Positions 3,001 through 62,990 of a stretch of DNA of 64,000 bases are shown one piece after another (the first letter of the stretch is position 1; every line of letters starts with the position of its first letter). This stretch comes from Panopea generosa (lineage: Eukaryota > Mollusca > Bivalvia > Adapedonta > Hiatellidae), in contig CM055903.1 in the NCBI GenBank assembly GCA_029582155.1, forward strand, positions 42,795,769 through 42,859,768. The letters are read 5' to 3'. The position numbers were made by a program, and so were the translations under genes. The notes beneath the pieces are model-generated. The model ran no database searches, was not told where the DNA came from, and saw nothing but the letters and a program-made list of their open reading frames with translations.

Positions 3001-6000
3001 AACCGAAGACCTTCAGCGGTGTGATGTACATTTTAATTAAATGACAGAAACTTAGACCATTCACCACAATGGACCATGTATTGATGATTCAAAATAGAGA
3101 TGAAGCTAAAAATAGACATAAACCGCTGTCTAAAGAAGTTTGATTTGACTTAGATGACTTACATGTTATGACAATATTGGACCTTTTGATGCCAATTAAA
3201 TTGATTAACAATATTAACAATTCAGTAAATTCAACACTTCGCTAGCGTTCCAGTGCGTGAGATATGTTTAAATATCTTAACTCATTAAAATAATGTCTAA
3301 GTTACATTTTACTTCCTTGATACTCCATTAAACTTCAAGAAATAGTTACCTCAAAGCTACTTACAAAACGAGTACAAGTATCCGTGTGGGTCGAAATTAC
3401 ATGCAGGGACGAGGCTCTCAATGGGAGAAAACAGACATATACAATCTCAGGACGGTTTATTTGTGTTTTTATCCTCCAAGCGTATTGTGTAATATCTTAT
3501 TTGTTATTAGTACTGGCAAATGTGATAAAAGAATTTTCAGTAAGTTAACTATTAATTACTGTATAAACAGAACTGTGTAATGTTAACTGGTATCAAAATA
3601 TATATACCATCCTGTTCAAGGTTACCGTGGGAAACATTCAGAAGACGGTTGGGTTTCTCAGGTACAAGAAGTTAGAAGAGCTGGTGACCCACCTGACCAT
3701 TATCATCGCCGTTGTCATTAGTGTATTGGTCGTTTTAGTAGCCTTAGGTAATGTCTATCTTTAAATTCAATGACATCCATCATTTGCTATATATATATTG
3801 TTTAATAACTCAACATTGTTTTACAATGATACTAACAAAATATACATAATAATTCCACTGAAGACTCGCTGAAAATAAAAAATCTGAAATAAATTGAACA
3901 ATTCTGCCTGATGTTTATCGTGTATGTATTATATATAATCAGAAACCGGCATACACATTTTTTGACCTTTTCTTTTAAGATCTTGGAGTCTTGCACAAAT
4001 TTCTCAAGCACACAAAATAAATGTGCCGTTTCTTTTACAAATCCTTTGGATCACTTTTTAATATAGGTAAAAAAAACCAAACTCATTCCATCAAAATATA
4101 TATCAACTACATTGAATATGTAATGAATATTATTTGTGTTAAGTCGTACTTATGAATTAATTAATGAGTCACCGAAATTAAACATTTTTAAGTTTTTTTT
4201 TTATTTTATTTTCACCCCATTCAGATCACCCGTAATTCGTAATATTTTCATGTTTAATACATTGTGTACCATTCTAGGAATAACGACAGCGTGTTTCCTG
4301 TACAGGAAGTTTGGAAGTAAGGTAAAGGAACTAGAAAGTATTTCAGCTGCAAAAGATGTGAAACTATCTTCGATAGAGGGCAGGTGAGACTATTAAACGG
4401 GGGTCGTGCAAAATGTTTTGTCACTAATGAGATTCTGTATTTTTATCCCAGGTATATTTTAAAACGCCTCACTGCATTTCATTAATGTAAATTGCTTTTC
4501 AAATGACCGAAATATTTAAGTCTGAAATATATGCAGTCATATACAATGACCATTTTATAAGTCACTAGGCTTGGTATAGATGCAAAGCAATAATTGATGA
4601 ACTGTGTGATATTTCTATGCGTACAGTATTGGTGGGTTAAAACTTTTTACAGCGCTGGGAAATTGTCTGTCAAAGATGACACCCGCCGAAGACCTAAAAC
4701 CTCTATTCTCTATTCAAACATCGGTACTGTACAGACTGTGGTGGAGCAAAATGCCCGATTGTCGGTGAAAGAAATAGCCAGTAGAGCTTGCATATCAGAA
4801 AGCAGCATACAAACGATTCTCAAAAAGCATCTGCACCTGAGAAAGATTTGTGCTAGGTGGGGACTTCATTTGGTCACTGAGTAAACAGCGTCTAAAATGT
4901 GCCTGGGAACTTCTGAAAAATACAACTGTAATAGTCGGGTTATTTCTAACTTGCTAACAGTTGACGAAACTTGTGGGTACATATGTTTAAGCCACAGAGA
5001 AAGGCTGATAACGAGCAATGGAATCGAAAAATCAAGCTCGCCTATGTACGCCAAGAGAACCATCAGTACGAAGAAAATGCTGTACGCCATTGTCATGTGT
5101 CTTGTCCATCTGGTCATACAGTCACTGGACGCTTCTATAATAACTGTGCTGAAGAAAGCCAAAAAAATATCGCCAAATCGACCAAGCAAAGGATGGTCAG
5201 GGGTCTATCTGATTCATGACATCGCCTCCTCTCCTCAGGTGCGAGGATATTTGGGCTTTCTTGGCTTCTGAATACGTGCATGTTGTAAACAATCCGCCTT
5301 ACTCACCAGACCTGGGTCCATGCGACTTCTTTTTATTTCCAAGTCTTAAAAATGTTTTCTGGGAAGAAATATTATACCAGAAATTCTCTTGGCAGCGCTA
5401 TCTACCAGTGTCTCCAACAAATACCAAAATAATACTATCTAACTGCATTTCACGACTTGGTAACAAAAATGTGTTTCGGTAAAGGGGAAATACCTTAAAC
5501 GTTTGCAATAAATATATCTTTGATAAACGATGCACTTCAGAAATCCAACCCCAATGACTAAATCTTTTGCAGTAACCTCGTATATAAAATGTTAATATTC
5601 CTGTCATTGTACAGAACACATCTATTCAATTTTAAATTCCTCATCAAAAAGGAGTATTTCTAAGATATGGGTAATCATATATGTTTGTACGTTGTTTGGC
5701 TACTGCTCACTCTATATACACCTTCCCATGAACAGGGACAGTACCCTTTAGCTTGGGATGATCTAGCATAGAACTACCACATCCCTGGATTCGCCATTGT
5801 TGTTAAAATGAGGTATGGACGTCGTAATACCGTGTCAAAATATGAAGGTCTTGAATTCAATGTTGGATTTAGGATTTTGTGAAATCCGGAATCTCATGAC
5901 TAGCTGATATCATTTTCATTATTATTATGTTTTCTTCTTTATCCTTACTAATTATCAACGGGTCTTCACGTTTTATTCGTTTGTGCATCCATTCGTTGTG

Positions 6001-7217
6001 TGTGTGTGTGTGTGGGGGGGGGGGGATAGAGGGCGTTAGGAATGTCAACGAAACAAATATATTATCTTTTTTCTTGGGTGCGACAAATAATCCAACACGG
6101 CTTTAGGAGAAACACCCATAGTTGTGTCCCTTGTTCTTGCAGTCGCTGCACGATCAAAGAGGCATATTTTGCGGTCGGCCGTAAAAGCGTAACCACAGAA
6201 TCAAAATTGTATTTTAGTTAACTGTTGTATTTACAAACTAGCGAACAAATAATTTAGATAAAATATAACCCATGTGTTCGCTCTCGCGTGACGAATAGTA
6301 GTTGTGCTCGTTTAAACGAGTATTAAAACTTATTATACGCACGTGATAATAAATTTTGAGAAACAAATTGTTTCGAAACCTATTTATGTTTAAATAATGT
6401 TTTCTCTATACTTTATACCTGTAAAATAACTAGAAAAGGGTAAGAAATTAGTAAATCATTCTAGAGGTATTAACTATAATGTATTGTGTTTTATATCTAC
6501 AGGTTACAAGAATCGGAGGCACGTAATAACGAGTCTGTTACCCAGTCTACAAATGTGGATGATCCGTATGCGTATATAGATGATCCCTACCACGAGATTG
6601 ACACCGATAAAACTGCGAATACATATCAAGATCTTGATGCTACAACTAGAACCGTTGGCTACACTGAAGCTGTATCAAGGGACTCTGGTTACATACACCC
6701 ACAATCTACATCTAGAAGCTCTGACCAAGGGCAAACAGATAACGAACATGGAAATGACGGCTATATACATCCTCAGTCGGAGCTGAAGAATTTCGACTAT
6801 GAGCATCCACAAGCTACATTTAAAAGCTTAGACCAAGGGCAACGAAATGACGAATCTGGAAAAGACGGTTACATACATCCACAGTCGGAGCAGAAGAATT
6901 TCGACTATGAGCATCCGCAAGCTACACCTAAAAGCCCAGAACAAGGGCAACCAAATGACGAATCTGGAAAAGACGGTTACATACATCCACAGTCGGAGCA
7001 GAAGAATTTCGTCTATGAGCATCCACAAGCTACATCTAAAAGCTCTGACCAAGGGCAACCAGATGACGAATCTGGAACAGACGATTACATGCATCCACAG
7101 TCGGAGCAGAAGAGTTTCGATTATGAGCAGCCACAAGCTAAACCACCAACTTATCTGCAGCTACAAGGTGATTCGAGTGATTCGAGTTATGAGGATACAG
7201 ATGCACTCCGAGCATAA
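1..7217 (+). CDS. Plexin-like receptor with YxxP-rich tail (3' part of gene, five exons)
   Basis: Five exons join in frame with GT..AG introns: 1-93, 2134-2295, 3621-3747, 4278-4383 and 6503-7217, with phases 0, 0, 1 and 2, giving about 369 visible residues; the 5' part lies outside the window. Residues 1-85 complete an IPT/TIG domain. About 86-105 match the plexin pre-membrane segment (VTVGN then GFLRY). About 110-136 form one transmembrane helix, followed by a basic juxtamembrane helix (LYRKFGSKVKELES). Plexins then carry a split RasGAP domain. Here the last exon instead encodes 237 residues of acidic, Tyr-rich repeats and a stop, followed by AATAAA. The ectodomain kinship with plexins is well supported. 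Signalling through SH2 adaptors is inferred from the motifs. It could be an alternative 3' end of a longer plexin gene. Confidence 0.8.
112..354. mobile_element. MITE-like element, copy A
   Basis: About 243 bp with imperfect terminal inverted repeats: left TATACTGAACAGCTAACC, right GGTTTAGCTG-TTCCGTTCAGTATA. It has no coding capacity and lies 18 bp inside the first visible plexin-like intron. A diverged second copy, with similar ends and interior (CAAGTCAAAATYTCAA and nearby), is at 33748-33985. A TA-rich junction is visible but a clear target-site duplication is not. Confidence 0.6.
355..844. other. Intron sequence, nothing recognised
   Basis: AT-rich with A and T runs. No exon, tRNA-like promoter or repeat unit seen. 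Confidence 0.6.
845..2040. repeat. AT-rich minisatellite with higher-order structure
   Basis: Imperfect units of about 40-50 bp built on GTGCATTGTGAGCCATTACA and CATTACATTATAATTG. A block of about 300 bp starting near 884 is repeated 374 bp downstream, with the same order of variant units (TAATTAATCATAAT at 897 and 1271). It fills the intron before the exon at 2134. Short ORFs here are by-products of the repeat. Confidence 0.85.
2134..2295 (+). CDS. Plexin-like gene, exon: IPT/TIG domain core
   Basis: Acceptor TTGCAG at 2128-2133 and donor GTGAGT at 2296; 54 codons, phase 0 on both sides. It contains the motif run D-F-T-V-T-V-G-x-x-x-C, then L-T-D-T-K-L-V-C-x-P-P, then Q-P, which is close to the last IPT domain of plexins. 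Two cysteines are placed as in that family. Confidence 0.9.
2296..3620. other. Intron, mostly unremarkable
   Basis: AT-rich; apart from a minus-strand tRNA-like SINE fragment near 2960-3080 nothing is recognised. Confidence 0.6.
2960..3080 (-). mobile_element. tRNA-derived SINE fragment
   Basis: On the minus strand a B box (GGTTCGAGCCC) lies about 60 bp after an A-box-like TGGTGAATGG. The downstream piece (ACTTTCTCACAT on plus) is shared with the SINE at 31450-31690. The pairing is too decayed for a functional tRNA. Confidence 0.5.
3621..3747 (+). CDS. Plexin-like gene, exon: pre-membrane and transmembrane segment
   Basis: Acceptor TTCAAG ends at 3620 and donor GTAATG begins at 3748. It encodes VTVGNIQKTVGFLRYKK, the plexin pre-membrane pattern V-x-x-G-N...G-x-x-x-Y. 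This is followed by a run of I, V and L residues that begins the membrane helix and finishes in the next exon. Entry phase is 0 and exit phase 1, matching both neighbours. Confidence 0.9.
3748..4277. other. Intron, nothing recognised
   Basis: AT-rich; no repeat unit or coding potential seen. A possible polypyrimidine tract precedes the acceptor ATTCTAG. Confidence 0.6.
4278..4383 (+). CDS. Plexin-like gene, exon: end of membrane helix and juxtamembrane segment
   Basis: Acceptor ATTCTAG ends at 4277 and donor GTGAGA starts at 4384; phases 1 and 2. It encodes the last turns of the membrane helix (ITTACFLY), a basic stop-transfer (RKFGSK) and a charged helix. Plexins have a similar short charged helix just inside the membrane, which dimerises. 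Confidence 0.82.
4580..5510 (+). pseudogene. Mariner-family transposase remnant
   Basis: Decayed mariner-like (DD34D type) transposase in intron 4, same strand as the host gene. The N-terminal helix-turn-helix is readable at 4725-4860 (VKEIASRACISESSIQ). The three catalytic aspartates can still be found: first within VDETCGY (about 4960), second within LIHDIASS (about 5208) and third within YSPDLGPCDFFLFP (about 5300-5342). These pieces lie in different frames, separated by frameshifts and stops, so no intact protein is made. The W normally following D-E-T is C here. I could not find terminal inverted repeats. Confidence 0.9.
5521..6502. other. Intron 3' part with GT/poly-G microsatellite
   Basis: Contains a (TG)n run followed by 12 consecutive G at 6014-6025. 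Otherwise nothing is recognised. The 3' end is the TATCTACAG acceptor at 6494-6502. Confidence 0.7.
6503..7217 (+). CDS. Plexin-like gene, last exon: tyrosine-repeat cytoplasmic tail
   Basis: Entry in phase 2 (AG|G = Arg), 237 further residues, TAA at 7215-7217. The tail has 16 tyrosines. Nine are in Y-x-x-P motifs (YIHP four times, YMHP once, YEHP three times, YEQP once). Others are in acidic contexts: PYAYIDDPYHEI, TYQDL, GYTEA, TYLQL and SYEDT. Y-x-x-P repeats are the Crk-type SH2 docking sites of p130Cas-like substrate domains (known); this tail resembles such a scaffold (inference). It contains no catalytic domain. Composition is rich in D, E, Q, S and P and poor in hydrophobics, so it is probably disordered. 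Confidence 0.87.
6690..7137 (+). repeat. In-frame 108-bp coding repeat
   Basis: Four copies of a 36-residue unit, plus a shortened first copy lacking the middle, within the last exon. The start GACGG lies at 6756 and 6864 (108 bp apart) and recurs at the same spacing. Each full unit carries one Y-[IM]-H-P and one Y-E-[HQ]-P. The nucleotide copies are close enough to suggest recent duplication and possible copy-number variation. Confidence 0.9.
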
Positions 7218-7268: not shown

Positions 7269-7274
7269 AATAAA
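7269..7274 (+). terminator. Polyadenylation signal of plexin-like gene
   Basis: AATAAA 52 bp after the stop codon, the expected place if the last exon is terminal. Confidence 0.7.
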
Positions 7275-15395: not shown

Positions 15396-17650
15396 GAAGT
15401 GTCAACAAAGGAAGTGTCAACAGTATAACAGCCATCACCAAAGGAAGTGTTAACAGTCTCACAGCCATCACCAGCCAGGGGGAAGTGTCAACAGTCTTAC
15501 AACCATCACCAAGGGGAAGTGTCAACAGTCTTACAGCCATCACCATAGGGAAGTGTCAACAGTCTTACAGCCATCACCATAGGGAAATGTCAATAATCTT
15601 ACAGCCATCACCATAGGGAAGTGTCAATAATCTTACAGCCATCACCATAGGGAAGTGTCAATAGTCTTACAGCCATCACCATAGGGAAGTGTCAACAGTC
15701 TTACAGCCAAGACCATAGGGAAGTGTCAATAGTCTTACAGCCATCACCATAGGGAAGTGTCAACAGTCTTAAGGCCATCACCATAGGGAAGTGTCAATAG
15801 GTTTACAGCCATCACCATAGGGAAGTGTCAACAGTCTTACAGCCATCACTTAGGAGAAGTGTCAACAGTCTTACAACCATCACCACAGGGACGTGTCAAC
15901 AGTCTTACAGCCATTACCATAGGGAAGTGTCAACAGTCTTACAGCCATCACCAAGGGGAAGTGTCAATAATCTTACGGCCATCACCATAGGGAAAAGTCA
16001 ATAGTCTTACAGCCATCAATAAAAGAGGGTGTCAACAGTTTTACAGCCATCAACAAAGGCAGTGTCAACAGTCTTACAGCCATCAACAAAGGCAGTGTCA
16101 ACAGTCTTATAGGCATTAACAAAGGAAGTGTCTACAGTCTTACAGCAACAACCATAGGGAAGGGTCATCAGTCATGCAGCCATCACCAATGGGAAGTGTC
16201 AACTTCCTTACAGCCACCATCAAAGGAAGAGTCAACAGTCTTACAGCCACTATCAAAGTATGTGCAACAGTCTTACAGCAATCACCAAAGGAAGTATCAA
16301 CAGTCTTACAACCTTCACCAAAAGCAGTGTCAACAGTCTTACAGCCATCACCAAAAGCAGTGTCAAGAGTTGTACAGCCATCACCAAAGGCATTGTCTAC
16401 AATCTTACAGCCGTCAACAAAGGCAGTATCAAAAATCTTACAATCATCAACAAAGGCAATGTCAACAGTCTTACAATCATCAACAAAGGCAATGTCAACA
16501 GTTTTACAGCCATCATCATAGGGAAGTGTCAACAGTCTTACAGCCATCACCATAGGGAAGTGTCAACAGGCTAACAGCCATCACCAAGGGGAAGTGTCAG
16601 TAGTCCTACAGCCATCACCAAAGGAAGTGTCAACAGTCTTACAGCCATTACCACGAGGAAGTGTCAGTAGTCCTACAGCCATCACCAAAGGAAGTGTCAA
16701 CAGTCTTACAGCCATCACCATAGGGAAGTGTCAACAGTCTTACAGCCATCACCATTGGGAAGTGTCAACAGTCTTACAGCCATCACCGTAGGGAAGTGTC
16801 AACAGTATTATAGCCTTCACCATAAGGCAGTGTCAATAGTCTTACAACCATCACCATAGGGAAGTGTTAACAGTCTTACAGCCATCACTTAGGGGAAGTG
16901 TCAATAGTCTTACAGCCATCACCATAGGGAAGTGTCAACAGTCTTACAGCCATTACCATAGGGAAGTGTCAACAGTCTTACAGCCATCACCAAGGGGAAG
17001 TGTCAATAGTCTTACAGCCATCACCATAGGGAAAAGTCAACAGTCTTACATCCATCAACAAAGACAGGGTCAACAGTCTTATAGGCATTAACAAAGGAAG
17101 TGTCAACAGTCTTACAGCCATCACCATAGGGAAGTGTCAATAATCTTACAGCCATCACCATAGGGAAGTGTCAATAGTCTTACAGCCATCACCATAGGGA
17201 AGTGTCAACAGTCTTACAGCCAAGACCATAGGGTAGTGTCAATAGTCTTACAGCCATCTCCATAGGGAAATGTCAACAGGCTAACAGCCGTCACCAAGGG
17301 GAAGTGTCACTAGTCCTACAGCCATCACCAAAGGAAGTGTCAACAGTCTTACAGCCATCACCATAGGGAAATGTCAGTAGTCCTACAGTCATCACCAAAG
17401 GGAAGTGTCAGTAGTCCTACAGCCATCACCATTGGGAATTGTCAGTAGTCCTACAGCAATCACCAAAGGGAATTGTCAACAGTCTTACAGCCATTACCAT
17501 TGGGAATTGTCAACAGTCTTACAGCCATCACCATAGGGAAGTGTCAGTAGTCCTACAGCCATCATCAAAGGAAGTGTCAACAGTCTTACAGCCATCGCCA
17601 TAGGGAAGTGTCAGTAGTCCTACAGCCATCACCAAAGGAAGAGACAACAG
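15395..17650. repeat. 34-bp minisatellite, about 65 copies
   Basis: Unit GGAAGTGTCAACAGTCTTAC followed by AGCCATCACCATAG, 32-34 bp. Sub-variants (CAACAAAGGCA, CCAAAGGA, CATAGGGA) are clustered, which suggests block duplication. Because 34 is not a multiple of three and the unit lacks stops in some frames, several overlapping ORFs appear; none looks like a gene. Confidence 0.95.
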
Positions 17651-17654
17651 TCTT

Positions 17655-17728
17655 ACAGCTTTCATTTAGAATCTTTGTAAAACTTTGTCAACAAAATAAA
17701 AGTTCATTTAATTTTACTTGGAGTATAT
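17655..17728 (+). repeat. Dispersed repeat, copy 1
   Basis: About 72 bp (TTTAGAATCTTTGTAAAACT ... ACTTGGAGTATAT) found inverted and nearly identical at 35235-35312. It begins directly where the 34-bp array ends. Family unknown. Confidence 0.8.
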
Positions 17729-23084: not shown

Positions 23085-24265
23085 ACATAATAAACAAGGG
23101 ATACATCCTATTACCGACTAAAGCACACGCAGCTGTCCATCATCATATAACATTCAAAATCATCCATACACGACTAAATCACACACAGCTGTTCATCATA
23201 ATATAGCATACAAAATCATCCATACACGTCTAAAGCACACACAGATGCCCATCATCATATAACATACAAAAACATCCATACACGACTAAAGCACACACAG
23301 CTGTCCATCATCATATGACATTCAAAATCATACATACACGACTAAATCACACACAGCTGCTCATCATAATATAGCATACAAAATCATCCATACACGACTA
23401 AATCACACACAGCTGCTCATCATAATATAACATATAAAATCATCCATACTTGTCTTAAGCACACACAGCTGCCCATCATCATATAACATACAAAAACATC
23501 CATACACGACTAAAGCACACACAGCTGTTCATCATAATATAGCATACAAAATCATCCATACACGTCTAAAGCACACACAGCTGTTCATCATCATAAAATA
23601 TACAAAAACATCCATACACGACTAAAGCACACACAGCTGTCCATCATCATATAACATTCAAAATCATCCATACACGACTAAATCACACACAGCTGCTCAT
23701 CATAATATAGCATACAAAATCATTCATACACGTCTAAAGCACACTCAGCTGCTCATCAACATATAACATACAAAATCATCCATACACGACTAAAGCAAAC
23801 ACAGCTGCTCATCATCATAAAACATACAAAAACATCCATACACGACTAAATCACGCACAGCTGCTCATCATAATAAAGCGTACAAAATCATCCATACACG
23901 ACTAAAGCACACACAGCTGCTCATTATATTAAAGCATACAAAAACATCCATACACGACTAAATCACACAGCTGCTCATCATCATAAAATATACAAAAACA
24001 TCCATACACGACTAAAGCACACACAGCTGCTCATCATCATAAAACATACAAAAACATCCAACGCGACTAAATCACACAGCTGCTCATCATAATATAGCAT
24101 ACAAAAACAGCCATACACGACTAAAGCACACACAGCTGCTCATCATCATATAACATACAAAAACATCCATACACGACTTAAGCACACACAGCTGCTCATC
24201 ATCATATAACATACAAAAACATTCATACACGACTAAAACACACAAAACACTATATACAACATAAA
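23085..24265. repeat. 56-bp minisatellite, about 21 copies
   Basis: Unit CATACACGACTAAAGCACAC then ACAGCTGCTCATCATCATAT then AACATACAAAAACATC. Alternating AAATCATCC and AAACATCC variants show pairwise higher-order order. CAGCTG occurs once per unit. Confidence 0.95.
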
Positions 24266-33900: not shown

Positions 33901-36900
33901 AATTGCGTTTATAATGTTTGAGAAAATTCATGAAATGTCAGTTACATAAAATGTCAGGTGGCGGGTTAGCTGTTCCGGTCATTATAAAACTTTAGATTTT
34001 CCTCAACGGTTTTTTATTGAATACTGTTACCTCACTTAAATTGATTATGTCGCATGATATATTTACCAATTAATGCATATGTGTTATGAATGTACATATG
34101 CAATTGTCTTTCGTTAAGCAATTTTGTTGGGAAGAATTCAATTTAAAAGTATGTTTTCTAAAACTACGTGAAACGGACCCCTTGACTCTGAGTGGCACAA
34201 AATATAATTTATAGATAAAGTAAGTGATGCTTGTTACTCAACCATTTTTCTCAGGCACGTATTGGCTATCAGAAATTAGTAAATGTACCAACAGGTCTGA
34301 ATTTGAACAACTATGCTTAATAAAAACTAACCGATTACCGAGTTTAATCAATATTATGTAATCTGCATTGCTTTAGTTGATTCATCAAATATTTTTAGCA
34401 TACCACAAAATTGTATACCCTTCCAAAACGCCATGCATCACATGTTTCGCCGTCAGCGGCAGTATTCCATGTTCCGAAGTACACATCAACATCCTCAAGC
34501 ACACAGTTAGTTTCTGTTAGAATTTAAAAGAATTAAAAATGATCAGTTTGATTAAACATCGCTATTTCTAACTTTATTTCTATAAAACATTATAAAGGAC
34601 ACAGCATTTTTACTATACTTATATTGTAATTATTTAGGATTTATTCGTTTGCATTTCTAGATTGTAAATGTCTACTACCTCAAGTTAAGGCGTATACATA
34701 ACTACATGTAATAATACACATCGCATATCATGTTTTAAAACAAATATATCAAAGTAAATGTAGGCTACCGTAGGCAGAGAACATGCATGTAAACGATGTT
34801 TTATAGGGAAAGCAAATAAATCTATATTTAAAGGGCAGAGCGAAGCTTGTGTAGCCTATTTTGATCATTTAAAACTGTATATTACGGTGTTCAACGATAC
34901 AACGCTGACGTTACCGAAATTTTCAGGGATTATACATATTCCCTGATTATACATATTCCCTGTAACATATATATATATATATATATATATATAGCTCGGT
35001 TACATCATAACAAGTTATAACTGCGTTTATTTGTGTAAATAATGAGGATTTTATTGGCAACCATAAAATCAAATTCAGACGAAAAAAATCAGTATGTATA
35101 CATTTCGGTTATATTATAGTCCACCTGTTATCAATTAATCAATGGTTTAAGCGGTGCCCTGTGGCTTTGTTGTTGTTATTGTTGTAGTGATTTTTTCTTG
35201 TTGTATCGTCTGAGAATAGAGCAAGTTTGTATTAAAAATATACTCCAAGTAAAATTAAATGAACTTTTAATTTGTTGACAAAGTTTTACAAAGATTCTAA
35301 ATAAAAGACAGAATAGACAGCCGTATTAGAATTACTTAGAGATTGTATTCCCTATTCTCAGTTCAGTGAACAAACCAATGAAAACTGGTGGCCCCGGACC
35401 GACAATGAGAGATGGGCTAAAGATCAACGCGTATGCCATTACGCAGCTTACCTGTAAGGATTTTGTCTTCGAAGAAGTTGTGTCAAGGAAGTGGCCGAAC
35501 AAAGAAAGCCATAAATTGGAAATCGCATTACAATACAGAAATAGTTGTCTTTTTATCAAACAGCTGACGGCATACTTATCAGTATAAACAAAGAGACCAG
35601 GCGTTGTTTTCGAAATCAACTATTTATACTTAAACGAACTCCGGATAAAAAGAAGATGACCTTTGTCACATTTTTTCTCCAGTTCAGCCAGGAGAACACT
35701 ATTCTGTTCATATTCCGGTTATTATTATTACACGTCTGTTACAATTAGGCTTTTCAGTATAAAATAAGCTTACCGTGGTCCATCCGAGCCACGAAGCATC
35801 CTTCTGGGTACATTCCGGTTACATTATTACACGTTTGTTAGAACAAGACTTCTCTGTGTATAATAGACGATTACCGTCGCAACAATTTTCTAGCCCAGCC
35901 AAGAGATCACCCTTCAGTACATACTCCGGTTACATTATAACACGTGTTTTAAAACTAGACAGCTCTGTGTATAAATGACGATTACCTTTGTCACATATTT
36001 CTCCAGCCCATCCAGGACAACATCCGGTTACATTATAACACGTGTTTTACAACTAGATATCTCTGTGTATAAATGGCGATTACCTTTGTCACATATTTCT
36101 CCAGGCCATCCAGGACAACATCCGGTTACATTATAACACGTGTTTTACTACTAGATATCTCTGTGTATAAATGACGATTACCTTTGTCTCATTTTTCTCC
36201 AGCCCATCCAGGAGAACATCCTTCTGGAGACATTCCAGTTACATTATAACACGTGTTTTACAACTAGACCTCTCTGTGTATAAATGACGATTATGTTTGT
36301 CTCATCTTTCTCCAGCCCATCCAGGACAACATCCTTCTGGATACATTCCGTTTACATTATTACACGTCTGTTACAACAAGACCTCTCTGTGTATAATAGA
36401 TGATTACCTTCCTCACATTTTTCTAGTCCATCCAGGCTAATATCATTCTGGACACGTTTCGGTAAAATTATAACGTGTTTGTTACAACAAGACTCTCTTT
36501 GTTTAAAAGAAGGTTACCCTCGTCATATTTTTTATCCAGCCCAATCATGAAATTATTCTTCTAGACACATTCAATCACATTATTACACATATGTTGCACC
36601 TAGACTTCTTTGTGTATGAAAAAATAAAACGATTACCTTTGTCCCACTTTTCCAGTCAAGCCAGGAAAACATCCCTCTGGACACATTCCAGTTACATTAT
36701 TACACATACTAGACTTCTCGATGTATAAAATAAGCTCACCTTCGTTACATTTTTCTCTAGCCTAGCCAGAAGAACAACCTTCTTGACACATTCCAGTTAC
36801 ATTATTCCACGTATGTGATAACTTAACTAGACTTCTCTGTGAATATAAAAAGAAACTTACCTTCGTCACGTTTTTCTCCAGCCCAGCCAGAAGAACATCC

Positions 36901-39900
36901 TTCTTGACAAATCATTCCAGTCACATAATTACACGTATGTTATGACTACACTTCTCTGTGAATACAAGAAGCTTACCTTCGTCACATTTTTCTCCAGCCC
37001 AGCCAAAGGAACAGCCTTCATGACACATTCCAGTTAAATTATTACACGTAATACTATGTTATAACTAGACTTCTCAGTGAATAAAATAAGCTTACCTTTG
37101 TCACATTTTTCTCCAGCCCAGCCAGAAGAACAATCTTCTTGACACATTCCAGTTACATTATTACACTATATGATAAATTACACTTTATGATAACTATACT
37201 TCTTTATTAATAAAAGAAGCTTACTTTCGTCACAATTTTCTCCAGCCCAGCAAGAAGAACATCCTTATTGACACATTCCAGTTACATTATTCCATGTATG
37301 TTATAACTAGACTTCTCTGTGAATAAAAGAAGCTTGCCTTTGTCTCACATTTCTCCAGCCCATCTAGGAGAACATTCATCTGGACACATTCCGTTTTCAT
37401 TATTACACGTATGTTACAACTAGACCTCTATGTGTATAAAAGATGATAAACTTCCTCATATTTTTCTCCAGCGAATAACATTCTGGACACGTTTTGGTTA
37501 AATTATAACATGTCTGTTACAACAAGACTCTCTTTAAAAGAAGGTTACCCTCGTCTTATCTTTATCCAGCCTAGTCATGAAATCATTCTTCTAGACACAT
37601 TCAGTTACATTATTACACGTATGTTACACCTACACTTCTTTGTGAATAAAAGAAGCTTACTTTCGTCACATTTTCTCAAATCCAGCAAAACAATAAACTT
37701 ATTGGCATATTCCAGTTACATTATTCCACGTACGTGACAACCAGACTTCTCGGTGAATAAAAGAAGCTTACCTTCATTACATTTTTCTCTAGCCCAGCAA
37801 GAGGAAAGGCCTTTTTGACACATTCCCGTCACATTATTACGCGTATGTTATACCAAGACTTCTCTGTGAATAAAAGAAGCTTACCTTAGTCACATTTTTC
37901 TCAAACTAAGCTAAACAATAAACTTATTGACACATTCCAGTTACATTATTCCACGTATGTGATAACTACACTTCTCTGTGAATAAAAGAAGCTTACATTC
38001 GTTACATTTTTCTCCAGCCCAGCAAGAGGAACACCTTTCTTGACACATTCCCGTCACATTATTACACGTATGTTATAACAAGATTTCTCTGTGAATAAAA
38101 GAAGCTCATTTTTGTCGCACTTTTCTCCAGCCCAGCCAAAGGAACAGCCTTCTTGACACATTCCAGTTACATTATTAACGTAATACAATGGTATAACTAA
38201 ACTTTTGTGTGAATAAAAGAAGCTCATTCTTCCCTAGCCAAGCCAGAGAAACATCCTTCTTGACATATCCAGTTACATTTTTACACGTAATACTATGTTA
38301 TAACTTGACTTCTCTGTGAATAAAAGAAGCTTACCCTCGTCACATTTTTCTCCAGCCCAGTCAGGAGAACATCCTTCTAGACACATTCCAGGTACATTAT
38401 TACACGTCTGTTTACACTGGTAGCATCCATGCTGACATCGTTTTCCAAAGTAGTACTTCGGGCAATGATATTCTTAAACATATATTGCACAATCTAAAGT
38501 ACGAACTAAATATTTGAACTCGATGATAGAACTGCAATTACATAAGAATTCTCGGGGAGTGGGGGGGGGGGGGGGGGGGGGGGGGGCAGAAATAAAGGTG
38601 AATGAGTAACAGAAACTTTGATTAAATAGACGTTTAAATTTAATTTACGTGTTTTTGTTGAACTATTCATCATAAGCATTCTCAGAAATACGTATTATGT
38701 TAAATCAAACATGTTTCACGGATAATGTTAAATCAAACATGTTTCACGTAATATGTTAAATCAAACATGTTTCACGGATTATGTTAAATCATATGGAAGG
38801 GTATCACCGCCATAACGTTTAGTCTGAAATCTGTCGTTTGTTATTTGTGCAATGGATGTAAATGTTTCTTTCTTCTTAGTTCTTTGTGGAAAATGAAAAA
38901 TTTCACCTTTGTAACTTTGCTATTTGTCTATCCGACTATATCCTATCATTGTAAAAGTTACATACGTCTTGTCTCTTTGTGTCAGATTAAACATTACTTG
39001 CTGTGTAAAATTTATTTTTAGAATTTGATGTATGTTTCGATATGTGTTTCGGCTGCAGTCAGTCACGTATCTTTTTATGCCAATGTTCTATCCCTTTGTA
39101 ATGAGTGTAGGGAATGTTTTTGGACAGGGTATCAGACTGTTTCGACTGTGCTGCCGCTGAACGTCATCATTGTAATAAATCACAACTTCCCTTTATAACG
39201 TTCAGTTACAGACAGGTCCCCTGTAAACAACCCAAGAAGTTGCGAATGGAAATATTTGCTGTAAACAATCGTCAGAATTCGCGACTCTAAATACAGCCTT
39301 ACTTTAGGTCAGCTACCACCATTGAGAGGATCTCTCTGATTGGCTGAAAAAAGTATAGAGATGTTCAGGGCAAATATTTTTATAGAAAGCTTATTACTGG
39401 TTGGATGAAAATGTCAAACTGTCACTTGATCACAATAAAATATATATTATGTTTGTGTCAATAAAAAAATTTTTTTTTTGTGCGACAGACGAAATTCATT
39501 TTATTAAGGAAACTGTATGAAAAGTAAAACTGGTGAAATTTATTTTTTTTATGCTAAAAGTGGGGGTACCAAACTTCAGGGGGCAAAAAGTGGTAAAAAG
39601 TGGTACTTTTGAATCTAGGATAGTACTTTAATATGATGTAGGACTTTTCAGTGCACGAATGTAAGTGTGAGGTTTCTTTTAGGTCAGCCACCACCATTGC
39701 GTTTTCCATAGACTTACATTATAACGTTTGACCTAATGTTCACTATTTCTAGCATTCGCGGACAAACAGTTTAGTTTAAACTTATTTATTTTACTTCGAT
39801 TGTGAAACAAGTTATTACATCTTAACAATCACGCTCGAAGTATTCATGGTTCGAACCAGTACAAAGCATATGCTGAAAAGTGTCTTGCTCGAGAACACCA

Positions 39901-56649: not shown

Positions 56650-59600
56650 GTACTTACATAGAATCCTTCTAGTGATATCGCAATTAAGGTATCGGTGAGA
56701 GTGATTTATACTTACATAGTTTCCTTCTAGTGATATCGCAATTAAGGTATCGGTGAGCGTGATTTATACTTACATAGTATCCTTCTAGTGATATCGCAAT
56801 TAAGGTATCGATGAGAGTGATTTATACTTACATAGTATCCTTCTAGTGATATCGCAATTAAGGTATCGGTGAGAGTGATTTATACTTACATAGTATCCTT
56901 CTAGTGATATTGCAATTAAGGTATCGGTGAGAGTGATTTATACTTACATAGTTTCCTTCTAGTGATATCGCAATAAAGGTATCGGTGAGAGTGATTTACA
57001 CTTACATAGTATCCTTCTAGTGATATCACAATTAAAGGTATCAATGAGAGTGATTTATACTTATATAGTATCCTTCTAGTGATATCACAATTAAGGTATC
57101 GGTGAGAGTGATTTATACTTACATAGTATCCTTCCAGTGATATCACAATTAAAGGTATCGATGAGAGTGATTTATACTAACATAGTATCCTGCTAGTGAT
57201 ATCGCAATTAAGGTATTGATGAGAGCGATTTATGCTTACATAGCATCCTTGTAGGAATATCGCGATTAAGGTATCGGTGAGAGTGATAAGATATCACAAT
57301 TAAGGTATCGATGAGAGTGATTTATACTAACATAGTATCCTTCTAGTGATATCGCAATTAAGGTATTGATGAGAGTGATTTATACTTACATAGCATCCTT
57401 GTAGGAATATCGCGATTAAGGTATCGGTCAGAGTGATTAGATATCACAATTAAGGTATCGATGAGAGTGATTTATACTTACATAGTATCCTTCTAGTGAT
57501 ATCGCAATTAAGGTATCGGTGAGAGTGATTTATACTTACATAGTATTCTTCTAGTGATATCGCAATTAAGGTATCGTTGAGAATGATTTATACTTACATA
57601 GTGTCCTTCCAGTGATACCACAATTAAAGGTATCGATGAGAGAGATTTATACTTACATAGTATCCTTCTGGTGAAATCGAGAGTGATTTATACTTACATA
57701 GTATCCTTCTAGTGATAGCGCAATTAAGGTATCGGTGAGTGTGATTTATACTTACATAGTATCCTTCCAGTGATACCACAATTAAAGGTATCGATGAGAG
57801 AGATTTATACTTACATAGTATCCTTCTGGTGAAATCGAGAGTGATTTATACTAACATAGTATCCTTCTAGTGATAACGCAATTAAGGTATTGATGAGAGT
57901 GATTTATACTTACATAGTATCCTTGTAGGAATATCGCGATTAAGGTATCGGTGAGAGTGATAAGATATCACAATTTAGGTATCGATGAGAGTGATTTATA
58001 CTTACATAGTATCCTTCTAGTGATATCGCAATTAAGGTATTGATGAGAGTGATTTATACTTACATAGCATCCTTGTAGGAATATCGCGATTAAGGTATCG
58101 GTCAGAGTGATTAGATATCACAATAAAGGTATCGGTGAGAGTGATTTATACTTACGTAGTATCCTTCTAGTGATATCGCAATTAAGGTATCGGTGAGAGT
58201 GATTTATACTTACATAGTATTCTTCTAGTGATATCGCAATTAAGGTATCGGTGAGAATGGTTTATACCTACATAGTATCCTTCCAGTGATACCACAATTA
58301 AAGGTATCGATGAGAGTGATTTATACTTACATAGTATCCTTCTGGTGAAATCGAGAGTGATTTATACTTACATAGTATCCTTCTAGTGATAGCGCAATTA
58401 AGGTATCGGTGAGTGTGATTTATACTTACATAGTATCCTTCCAGTGATACCACAATTAAAGGTATCGATGAGAGAGATTTATACTTACATAGTATCCTTC
58501 TGGTGAAATCGAGAGTGATTTATATTTACATAGTATCCTTCTAGTGATAGCGCAATTAAGGTATCGGTGAGTGTGATTTATACTTACATCGTATCCTTCC
58601 AGTGATACCACAATTAAAGGTATCGATGAGAGTGATTTATACTAACATAGTATCCTTCTAGTGATAACGCAATTAAGGTATTGATGAGAGTGATTTATAC
58701 TTACATAGTATACTTGTAGGAATATCGCGATTAAGGTATCGGTGAGAGTGATTAGATATCACAATTAAGGTATCGATGAGAGTGATTTATACTTACATAG
58801 TATCCTTCTAGTGATATCGCAATTAAGGTATCGGTGAGAGTGATTTATATTTACATAGTATCCTTAAAGTGATATCGCAATTAAAGTATCGGTGAGAGTG
58901 ATTTATACTGATGTAGTATCCTTCTAGTGATATCGCTATTAAAGTATCGGTGAGAGTGATTTATACTTAATATATAATATCCTTCTAGTGATATCTTAAT
59001 TAAGGTATCGGTGAGAGTGATTTATACTTACATTGTATCCTTCTAGTGATATCGCAATTAAGGCATCGGTGAGAGTGATTTATACTTATATAATATCCTT
59101 CTAGTGATATCTTAATTAAGGTATCGGTGAGAGTGATTTATACTTACATAGTATCCTTCTAGTGATATCGCAATTAAGGTATTGATGAGAGTGATTTATA
59201 CTTACATAGTATCCTTGTAGGAATATCGCGATTAAGGTATCGGTGAGAGTGATTAGATATCACAATTAAGGTATCGATGAGAGTGATTTATACTTACATA
59301 GTATCCTTCTAGTGATATCGCAATTAAGGTATTGGTGAGAGTGATTTGTACTTACATAGTATCCTTCAAGTGATATCGCAATTAAATTATCGGTGAGAGT
59401 GATTTATACTTATATAGTATCCTTCTAGTGATATCGCTATTAAAGTATCGGTGAGAGTGATTTATACTTACATTTTATCCTTCTAGTGATATCGCAATTA
59501 AGGTATCGGTGAGAGTGATTTATACTTACATAATATCCTTCTAGTGATATCTTAATTAAAGTATCGGTGAGAGTGATTTATACTTACATAGTATCCTTCT

Positions 59601-59940
59601 AGTGATATCGCAATTAAGGAATCGGTGAGAGTGATTTATACTTACATAGTATCATTCTAGTGATATCTTAATTAAGGTATCGATGAGAGTGATTAATACT
59701 TACATAGTATCCTTCTAGTGATATCGCAATTAAGGTATCGGTGAGAGTGATTTATACTTACATAGTATCCTTCTAGTGATATCGCAATTAAGGTATCGGT
59801 GAGAGTGATTTATACTTACATAGTGTCCTTCTAGTTATATCGCAATTAAGATATCGATGTAAGTGATTCATACTTACATATTATCCTTCTAGTGATATCG
59901 CAATTAATATATCGGTGAGTGTGATTTATACTAACAAATG
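56650..59940. repeat. 58-bp minisatellite, about 56 copies, with a donor-like site per unit
   Basis: Unit GTGATTTATACTTACATAGT then ATCCTTCTAGTGATATCGCA then ATTAAGGTATCGGTGAGA. Truncated units (GGTGAAATCGAGAGTG; AGTGATAAGATATCACAATT) recur in blocks near 57290, 57420, 57960, 58110, 58750 and 59250, showing higher-order duplication of several hundred bp. On the minus strand each full unit reads GAAGGATACTAT|GTAAGTAT, a consensus 5' splice site. Confidence 0.95.
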
Positions 59941-62914: not shown

Positions 62915-62990
62915 CAGCAGTCTGATTAGCTCAGTCGGTAGAACATTTGCCTTGTAAGCAAAAAGTTCCGGGTTGAGACACAGACTGGCT
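62915..62990 (+). mobile_element. tRNA-Thr-like SINE head
   Basis: A box TAGCTCAGTCGGTAGAACA and anticodon-like loop CTTGTAA; the B box is decayed (GGGTTGAGACAC). It is not a working tRNA gene for that reason. Confidence 0.65.

Follow-up and report, generated by a model that had tools for sequence, protein, structure and literature searches.

A plexin-like receptor family of Panopea generosa with a tyrosine-rich tail and no recognised RasGAP domain

The window analysed here is a stretch of 64,000 nucleotides (C10:42795769-42859768) from the 1.47-Gb genome of Panopea generosa, and at its left end it carries the 3' exons of a gene whose 5' part is located upstream of the window. A model of the gene was built by comparing 60 kb of upstream sequence in each reading frame with a diverged C13 paralogue and selecting splice sites manually so that the phase is kept; all introns are GT-AG. 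The predicted gene consists of 22 coding exons (C10:42755853-42802985) encoding 1515 amino acids with zero internal stops, the phases are consistent through all of these exons, and it shares with the C13 paralogue a colinear series of exon-like blocks that are about 44-85% identical per exon. Exons 1-17 (C10:42755853-42794793, plus strand) lie before the window. Exon 18, belonging to the IPT region and matched in 13 of 13 C10 copies of the gene, starts at C10:42795616, before the window, and its 3' part occupies positions 1-93 of the plus strand. It is followed on the same strand by exon 19 with the last IPT domain (2134-2295, phase 0 at both ends, 84% identical to the C13 paralogue), exon 20 with the pre-membrane segment and the membrane helix, the latter judged by eye (3621-3747, ending in phase 1), exon 21 with the juxtamembrane segment (4278-4383, ending in phase 2), and exon 22 with the cytoplasmic tail (6503-7217), which closes with the stop codon TAA at 7215-7217. 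A polyadenylation signal AATAAA is read at 7269-7274 (plus strand). The last three exons were found where the original prediction had placed them, with splice phases that fit. Its order of the last IPT and the membrane exons before the tail also stands, but the last-IPT exon lies just outside the span (3621-7217) that it had given for the gene.

Several other features share the window with this gene. A broken transposase-like stretch is located in intron 21 (4594-5480), and by its motifs we take it to resemble a mariner relative; its four transposase-like pieces and two other open reading frames of the window gave no Pfam match at E 0.01. On the minus strand, positions 36121-38412 hold about 20 copies of a 113-bp repeat, which is in part similar to EGF-type exons (CxEGCSxGWAGEKCDEG) followed by a donor-like GTAAGC; the array may represent partly broken exons of a scavenger-type or MEGF-like gene. 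Long minisatellite arrays with 34-, 56- and 58-bp units are present at 15402-17659, 23115-24244 and 56651-59936, and a match to the tRNA family at 62920-62980 (plus strand), barely above the Rfam gathering score and not called by ARAGORN, is possibly a tRNA-derived repeat.

The plexin-like extracellular architecture that had been proposed for this gene is confirmed by a single alignment to Plexin-A4, which covers residues 69-1184 with E 7.3e-70 when a 1278-amino-acid query including the helix and the juxtamembrane part is compared with solved structures; the HGF receptor follows behind it with E 3.3e-18. The PSI and IPT repeats are colinear with those of plexins in that alignment. The Sema exon (exon 1) alone finds fly Plexin A with E 3.1e-16, as expected of a plexin-type N-terminal Sema domain. 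In the 1515-residue model four TIG and two PSI stretches pass the cut-offs of their Pfam families, whereas Sema stays under its cut-off (E 0.021) and a third PSI appears only as a weak PSI_Plexin-B match under the cut-off or by alignment. A query that contains exon 19 also gave a TIG hit. The alignment keeps the order described for plexins, in which Sema precedes three pairs of PSI and IPT and then a further three IPTs (PMC6374515, excerpt). Behind the PSI2 exon of the C13 paralogue stand ten or more degenerate PSI-like coding repeats spaced 97 bp apart (C13:66988196-66989563).

The tail is of a different kind. Exon 22 encodes 237 amino acids in its own frame, with 16 tyrosines, nine of them in YxxP motifs (YIHP and YEHP, also YMHP and YEQP) and seven elsewhere, in agreement with the counts and positions originally reported for the terminal exon and the stop and AATAAA behind it. 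Most of the nine motifs sit in a 36-amino-acid (108-bp) tandem repeat that carries YIHP and YEHP (6699-7140, plus strand, 88% match, 4.1 copies) and are therefore not independent. Shuffled tails contain 1.13 YxxP on average and at most six in 10,000 shuffles, which rules out a chance origin of the motifs, with the caveat that, owing to the repeat, most of them are one event multiplied. YxxP is the Crk SH2 consensus, three or more of these motifs are rare in 100-kDa intracellular proteins, and p130Cas has 15 (PMC2689226, excerpt). The tail thus resembles a Cas-type scaffold in having multiple YxxP with conserved Tyr and Pro; SH3 and Cas C-terminal domains have no Pfam match in the 1515-residue model, and the tail itself gave neither a Pfam match above cut-off nor any PDB match at E 1. 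Outside the array, YHEI-x8-YQDL (6588-6635, plus strand; tail residues 29-44) satisfies the ITAM pattern YxxL/I-x6-12-YxxL/I. This ITAM-like pair arises in 369 of 20,000 shuffled tails, is kept in nine of nine aligned C10 tails and lost in the tail at 43.455 Mb; no such pair was noticed on reading the tails of C13 and C23.

The claim that the tail takes the place of the GAP domain was examined across the genome. The plexin GAP model PF08337 has 40 matches (80 of 80 candidates scored), none of which falls at C10:42.28-43.60 Mb, and neither PF08337 nor the Rho-GTPase-binding domain PF20170 has a match in the 1515-residue model. Neither kinase nor GAP motifs turned up in a scan (by motif, not by profile) of the 124 kb made up of the window and the 60 kb before it. 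The juxtamembrane exon ends in phase 2 in the window gene and, reading by eye as for all of these ends except that of the window gene, in phase 2 in the C13 copy and in phase 1 in both the canonical plexin at C10:38.69 Mb and a GAP-bearing gene at C10:64.72 Mb. Exon 21 at its present donor therefore could not join such a GAP exon in frame. The original prediction would have fallen if exon 4278-4383 always joined a GAP exon; with no GAP match nearby and the phase predicted to bar an in-frame join, alternative splicing to a GAP end is ruled out on present evidence. Several similar GAP-bearing plexin loci were also seen at C22:4.17-5.09 Mb and on C26, on short contigs; they may reflect another recent expansion of plexins or haplotypes that were not collapsed.

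A tail without GAP could also have come from a receptor tyrosine kinase. Met-LP, reported from an annelid and a mollusc, has a complete plexin ectodomain (PMC6374515, excerpt), and loss of its kinase would leave a tyrosine-rich docking tail of the present kind. Against this descent, kinase-motif patterns match nothing from 60 kb upstream of the window to its end (-60 kb to +64 kb), by which a hidden kinase was also discarded, and the 1515-residue model has no Pfam kinase match, so that the plexin-ectodomain-plus-kinase combination of Met-LP is not seen in it. One RTK loop pattern has three exact matches in the genome, all far from the C10 cluster. Moreover, reading by eye, the GAP-bearing gene at C10:64.72 Mb also has the phase-1 intron that follows exon 20, between helix and juxtamembrane segment. 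Not all plexins share this intron: in the canonical plexin at C10:38.69 Mb helix and juxtamembrane part form one open frame. Descent from a Met-LP-type receptor is accordingly regarded as quite unlikely.

The window gene is one of 13 tail-bearing copies that span 1.25 Mb on C10, a number that may be inflated by uncollapsed haplotypes in the assembly. For each of the 13 tails the nearest same-strand upstream matches are the juxtamembrane, helix, exon 19, exon 18 and Sema exons, the Sema exon lying 35-54 kb upstream of its tail and being only partially matched for the tail at 42.494 Mb. Because all 13 C10 copies and the C13 paralogue have the same exon order, the tail exon is assigned to the window gene, as had been proposed, and the possibility that it belongs to another gene is rejected. 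Two Sema exons, at 43193927 (plus strand) and 43200986 (minus strand), have no tail. A second Sema exon piece, 34-59% identical to the main one, lies about 1.6-2.5 kb upstream of it in many copies (C10:42753990, 43377845, 42424228, 42571396, 42865506 and others; some with stops); it could stem from an old duplication of the exon or serve as an alternative first exon.

The reading frame of the Sema exon stays open throughout the compared part in all 14 full-length members of the cluster, and likewise in the copies at 64.78 Mb and on C13; the comparison omits the partial 42.440 copy and the C23 pieces, several of which have stops. Pooled over 15 C10 copies, including that at 64.78 Mb, Sema dN/dS is 0.62. 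The most variable stretch, about alignment columns 131-192, has in-frame indels; dN/dS is 0.54 outside it, 0.96 inside it and 2.1 in columns 141-160, values that are a lead and not a test of positive selection, since the stretch was picked after viewing the alignment. In fly semaphorins, some loops of blade 3 align with the face of MET that binds HGF (PMC6695400, excerpt).

Searches of the genome for homologues of the tail, one scoring 63 of 63 candidates and another 150 of 364, gave 18 clear cases, comprising the 13 at C10:42.28-43.54 Mb, four on C23 and one on C13. Weak matches elsewhere, among them those at C16:47.99, C7:32.7 and C18:18.83 Mb, have 21-29% identity and a best E of 1.1e-7 among the 150 of 364 candidates scored; they were dropped as likely due to repeats or composition. 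The C13 and C23 tails are shorter and, where aligned, 52-60% identical to the window tail; they have one and two YxxP, respectively, keep some of the other tyrosines, and one of the C23 copies carries a stop. Because these five diverged tails keep other tyrosines but have only one or two YxxP, a tyrosine-rich tail was probably ancestral, with the YxxP array growing later, in the C10 cluster, through the 36-amino-acid repeat. The 13 C10 tails differ in length: seven have 237 amino acids, two stop nine residues early and lose the last Tyr, one has 201 amino acids and seven YxxP, one is doubled in frame to an open frame of 422 amino acids in which 16 YxxP were counted by hand, and the remaining two are cut short by premature stops and show Tyr-to-Asn changes in YEHP.

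Constraint is uneven within these tails. On the one hand, pooled dN/dS is 0.86 (36 pairs, nine tails), which indicates that the tail as a whole drifts or is weakly constrained. On the other hand, 0 of 16 Tyr columns vary among the nine tails (the two that end before the last Tyr being counted as gaps there), against 47 of all 237 columns, and for Tyr and YxxP proline columns together the count is 1 of 25 (hypergeometric p 0.023). Within the repeat units, pN/pS is 0.022 for the Y and P codons, with 850 silent and 38 other differences in 39 units from ten tails, counts that are pooled over pairs and thus do not represent independent events; it rises to 0.195 for whole motifs and to 0.505 for the eight residues in between. 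This set leaves out the doubled tail and the two that are cut, and the pattern that defines the units permits only N in place of Y and Q in place of the second P; by position, 39 units are expected (four in nine tails and three in one) and 39 were found. By these codon counts the Tyr and Pro codons of the YxxP repeats are protected.

This contrast bears on two other explanations. A GAP-less plexin could serve as a decoy or scavenger that binds ligand, acting in cis with true plexins or being internalised, and its tyrosines would then be mainly YxxPhi sorting signals. The tail has four such sites (YAYI, YHEI, YQDL and YLQL), it is weakly constrained as a whole, and among 13 tails two are cut and two shortened, all of which would suit a decoy; sorting signals, however, would not need the YxxP Tyr and Pro codons to be the best protected part of the repeats, and the array was amplified rather than lost, so that we consider this role unlikely. 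It is also conceivable that the cluster is simply decaying, its recent tandem copies becoming pseudogenes and its YxxP array being a neutral, in-frame coding minisatellite, which would account for the two cut tails, the two tail-less Sema exons and the tail dN/dS given above. The open Sema exons of the cluster and their lower dN/dS, the window gene model without a stop and the protected Y and P codons argue against decay, and its probability is very low.

Further information about the origin of the family comes from the GAP-bearing gene at C10:64.68-64.78 Mb (minus strand), about 22 Mb from the window gene. It has the family exons in order, with Sema 78% and PSI3 80% identical to those of the window gene, and downstream of PSI3 it continues with a diverged last IPT (36%), helix and juxtamembrane exons and GAP/Rho-binding pieces (PF08337 E 3.7e-28 and PF20170 E 1.4e-11 on hand-joined exon peptides); ectodomain and GAP pieces are treated as one gene on the basis of order, strand and spacing. 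In a tree of 16 Sema exons, with the variable stretch removed and rooted on the C13 copy, the 64.7-Mb copy falls into one group with 12 of the cluster's 14 copies (98/99). A tree in which those 14 form a group that excludes it is rejected (p 0.036), although the value is modest and gene conversion among copies could make it misleading. On a simple reading, heads and tails have been exchanged: an ectodomain of the tail-bearing family may have acquired a GAP-type end, or the change may have gone the other way. Four more ectodomain relatives at C16:2.16-2.67 Mb and one at C13:12.34 Mb are about 50-57% identical in the matched exons; they have neither a YxxP-tail nor a GAP match, and in the 5.5 kb read at C13:12.3485-12.354 Mb no helix or tail exon was recognised.

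Considering these results together, the window gene is best explained as a member of a plexin-derived receptor family that lost the RasGAP half and has a phosphotyrosine tail in its place, a reading to which we assign a probability of roughly 0.6. It is favoured by the ectodomain alignment, the exon order in 13 of 13 copies, the absence of GAP and kinase matches, and the constraint on the Y and P codons. Against it stand the tail dN/dS of 0.86 and the two cut, two shortened and one 201-amino-acid tails among the 13 on C10; in addition, the C13 and C23 tails show that a long array is unnecessary in every member, and repeats can amplify without selection. The analysis goes beyond the first reading of this gene: it belongs to a multigene family, and its long YxxP array is, judging from the tail comparison, a recent amplification.

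If the tail signals, a semaphorin-like or other ligand would cluster the receptor, and a separate tyrosine kinase, of the Src family or belonging to a partner receptor, would phosphorylate the tail; the kinase must be borrowed, because none was found in the window gene. The tail tyrosines, once phosphorylated, may bind Crk-type adaptors, and the YxxP sites could gather several of these SH2 proteins in the manner of p130Cas. Such adaptors would bring DOCK/Rac or C3G/Rap exchange factors and thereby activate small GTPases, an outcome opposite to that of an ordinary plexin, by which Rap would be inactivated. An additional, Syk-type input could come from the ITAM-like pair. PLC-gamma and RasGAP are other possible SH2 readers of YIHP. 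The YxxI-x8-YxxL spacing of the window tail is also that of ITAM-bearing phagocytic receptors such as Draper, the ectodomain of which is unrelated to that of the window gene.

Among known systems, plexins share with the window gene the Sema-PSI-IPT ectodomain, the helix and the juxtamembrane exon, class A being the best-scoring among solved structures; the window gene differs in having no RasGAP or Rho-binding match and a one-exon tyrosine tail entered in a different phase, and its family in forming a 13-copy cluster with a variable Sema stretch. Met-LP likewise combines a complete plexin ectodomain with a tail other than a GAP, but that tail carries a tyrosine kinase; it is reported in the surveyed annelid and mollusc, each with two plexins (PMC6374515, excerpt). 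The p130Cas substrate domain shares the YxxP array, with 15 motifs (PMC2689226, excerpt) compared with nine here, whereas the window protein is predicted to be a membrane receptor, has no SH3 or Cas domain match, and carries its motifs mostly in a recent 36-amino-acid repeat. The literature search, judged largely by titles and the openings of abstracts and with subscription journals mostly outside it, found no GAP-less plexin with a tyrosine tail, an absence that is provisional. To that extent the suggestion that the combination is undescribed as a family holds; a plexin ectodomain on a non-GAP tail, on the other hand, is already known from Met-LP.

From choanoflagellates to humans the RasGAP domain is the best conserved part of plexins (PMC6374515, excerpt). 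A family with the ectodomain retained and the GAP gone would disentangle the role of the head from that of the GAP, a natural experiment in many copies. If its tail recruits Crk, a similar ligand would activate small GTPases in a setting in which plexins turn Rap off. The C10 cluster is also suited to the study of how receptors that have one tail in common diversify. More tentatively, the Sema-variable tandem cluster with its shared phosphotyrosine tail might be a plexin-built recognition system, an immune, self-recognition or gamete repertoire, in which head and tail are separable cassettes, a notion that derives from the GAP-bearing relative at C10:64.7 Mb. Were this so, a similar recognition head could be coupled either to a Rap-inactivating GAP or to a Crk-recruiting tail that activates Rac or Rap.
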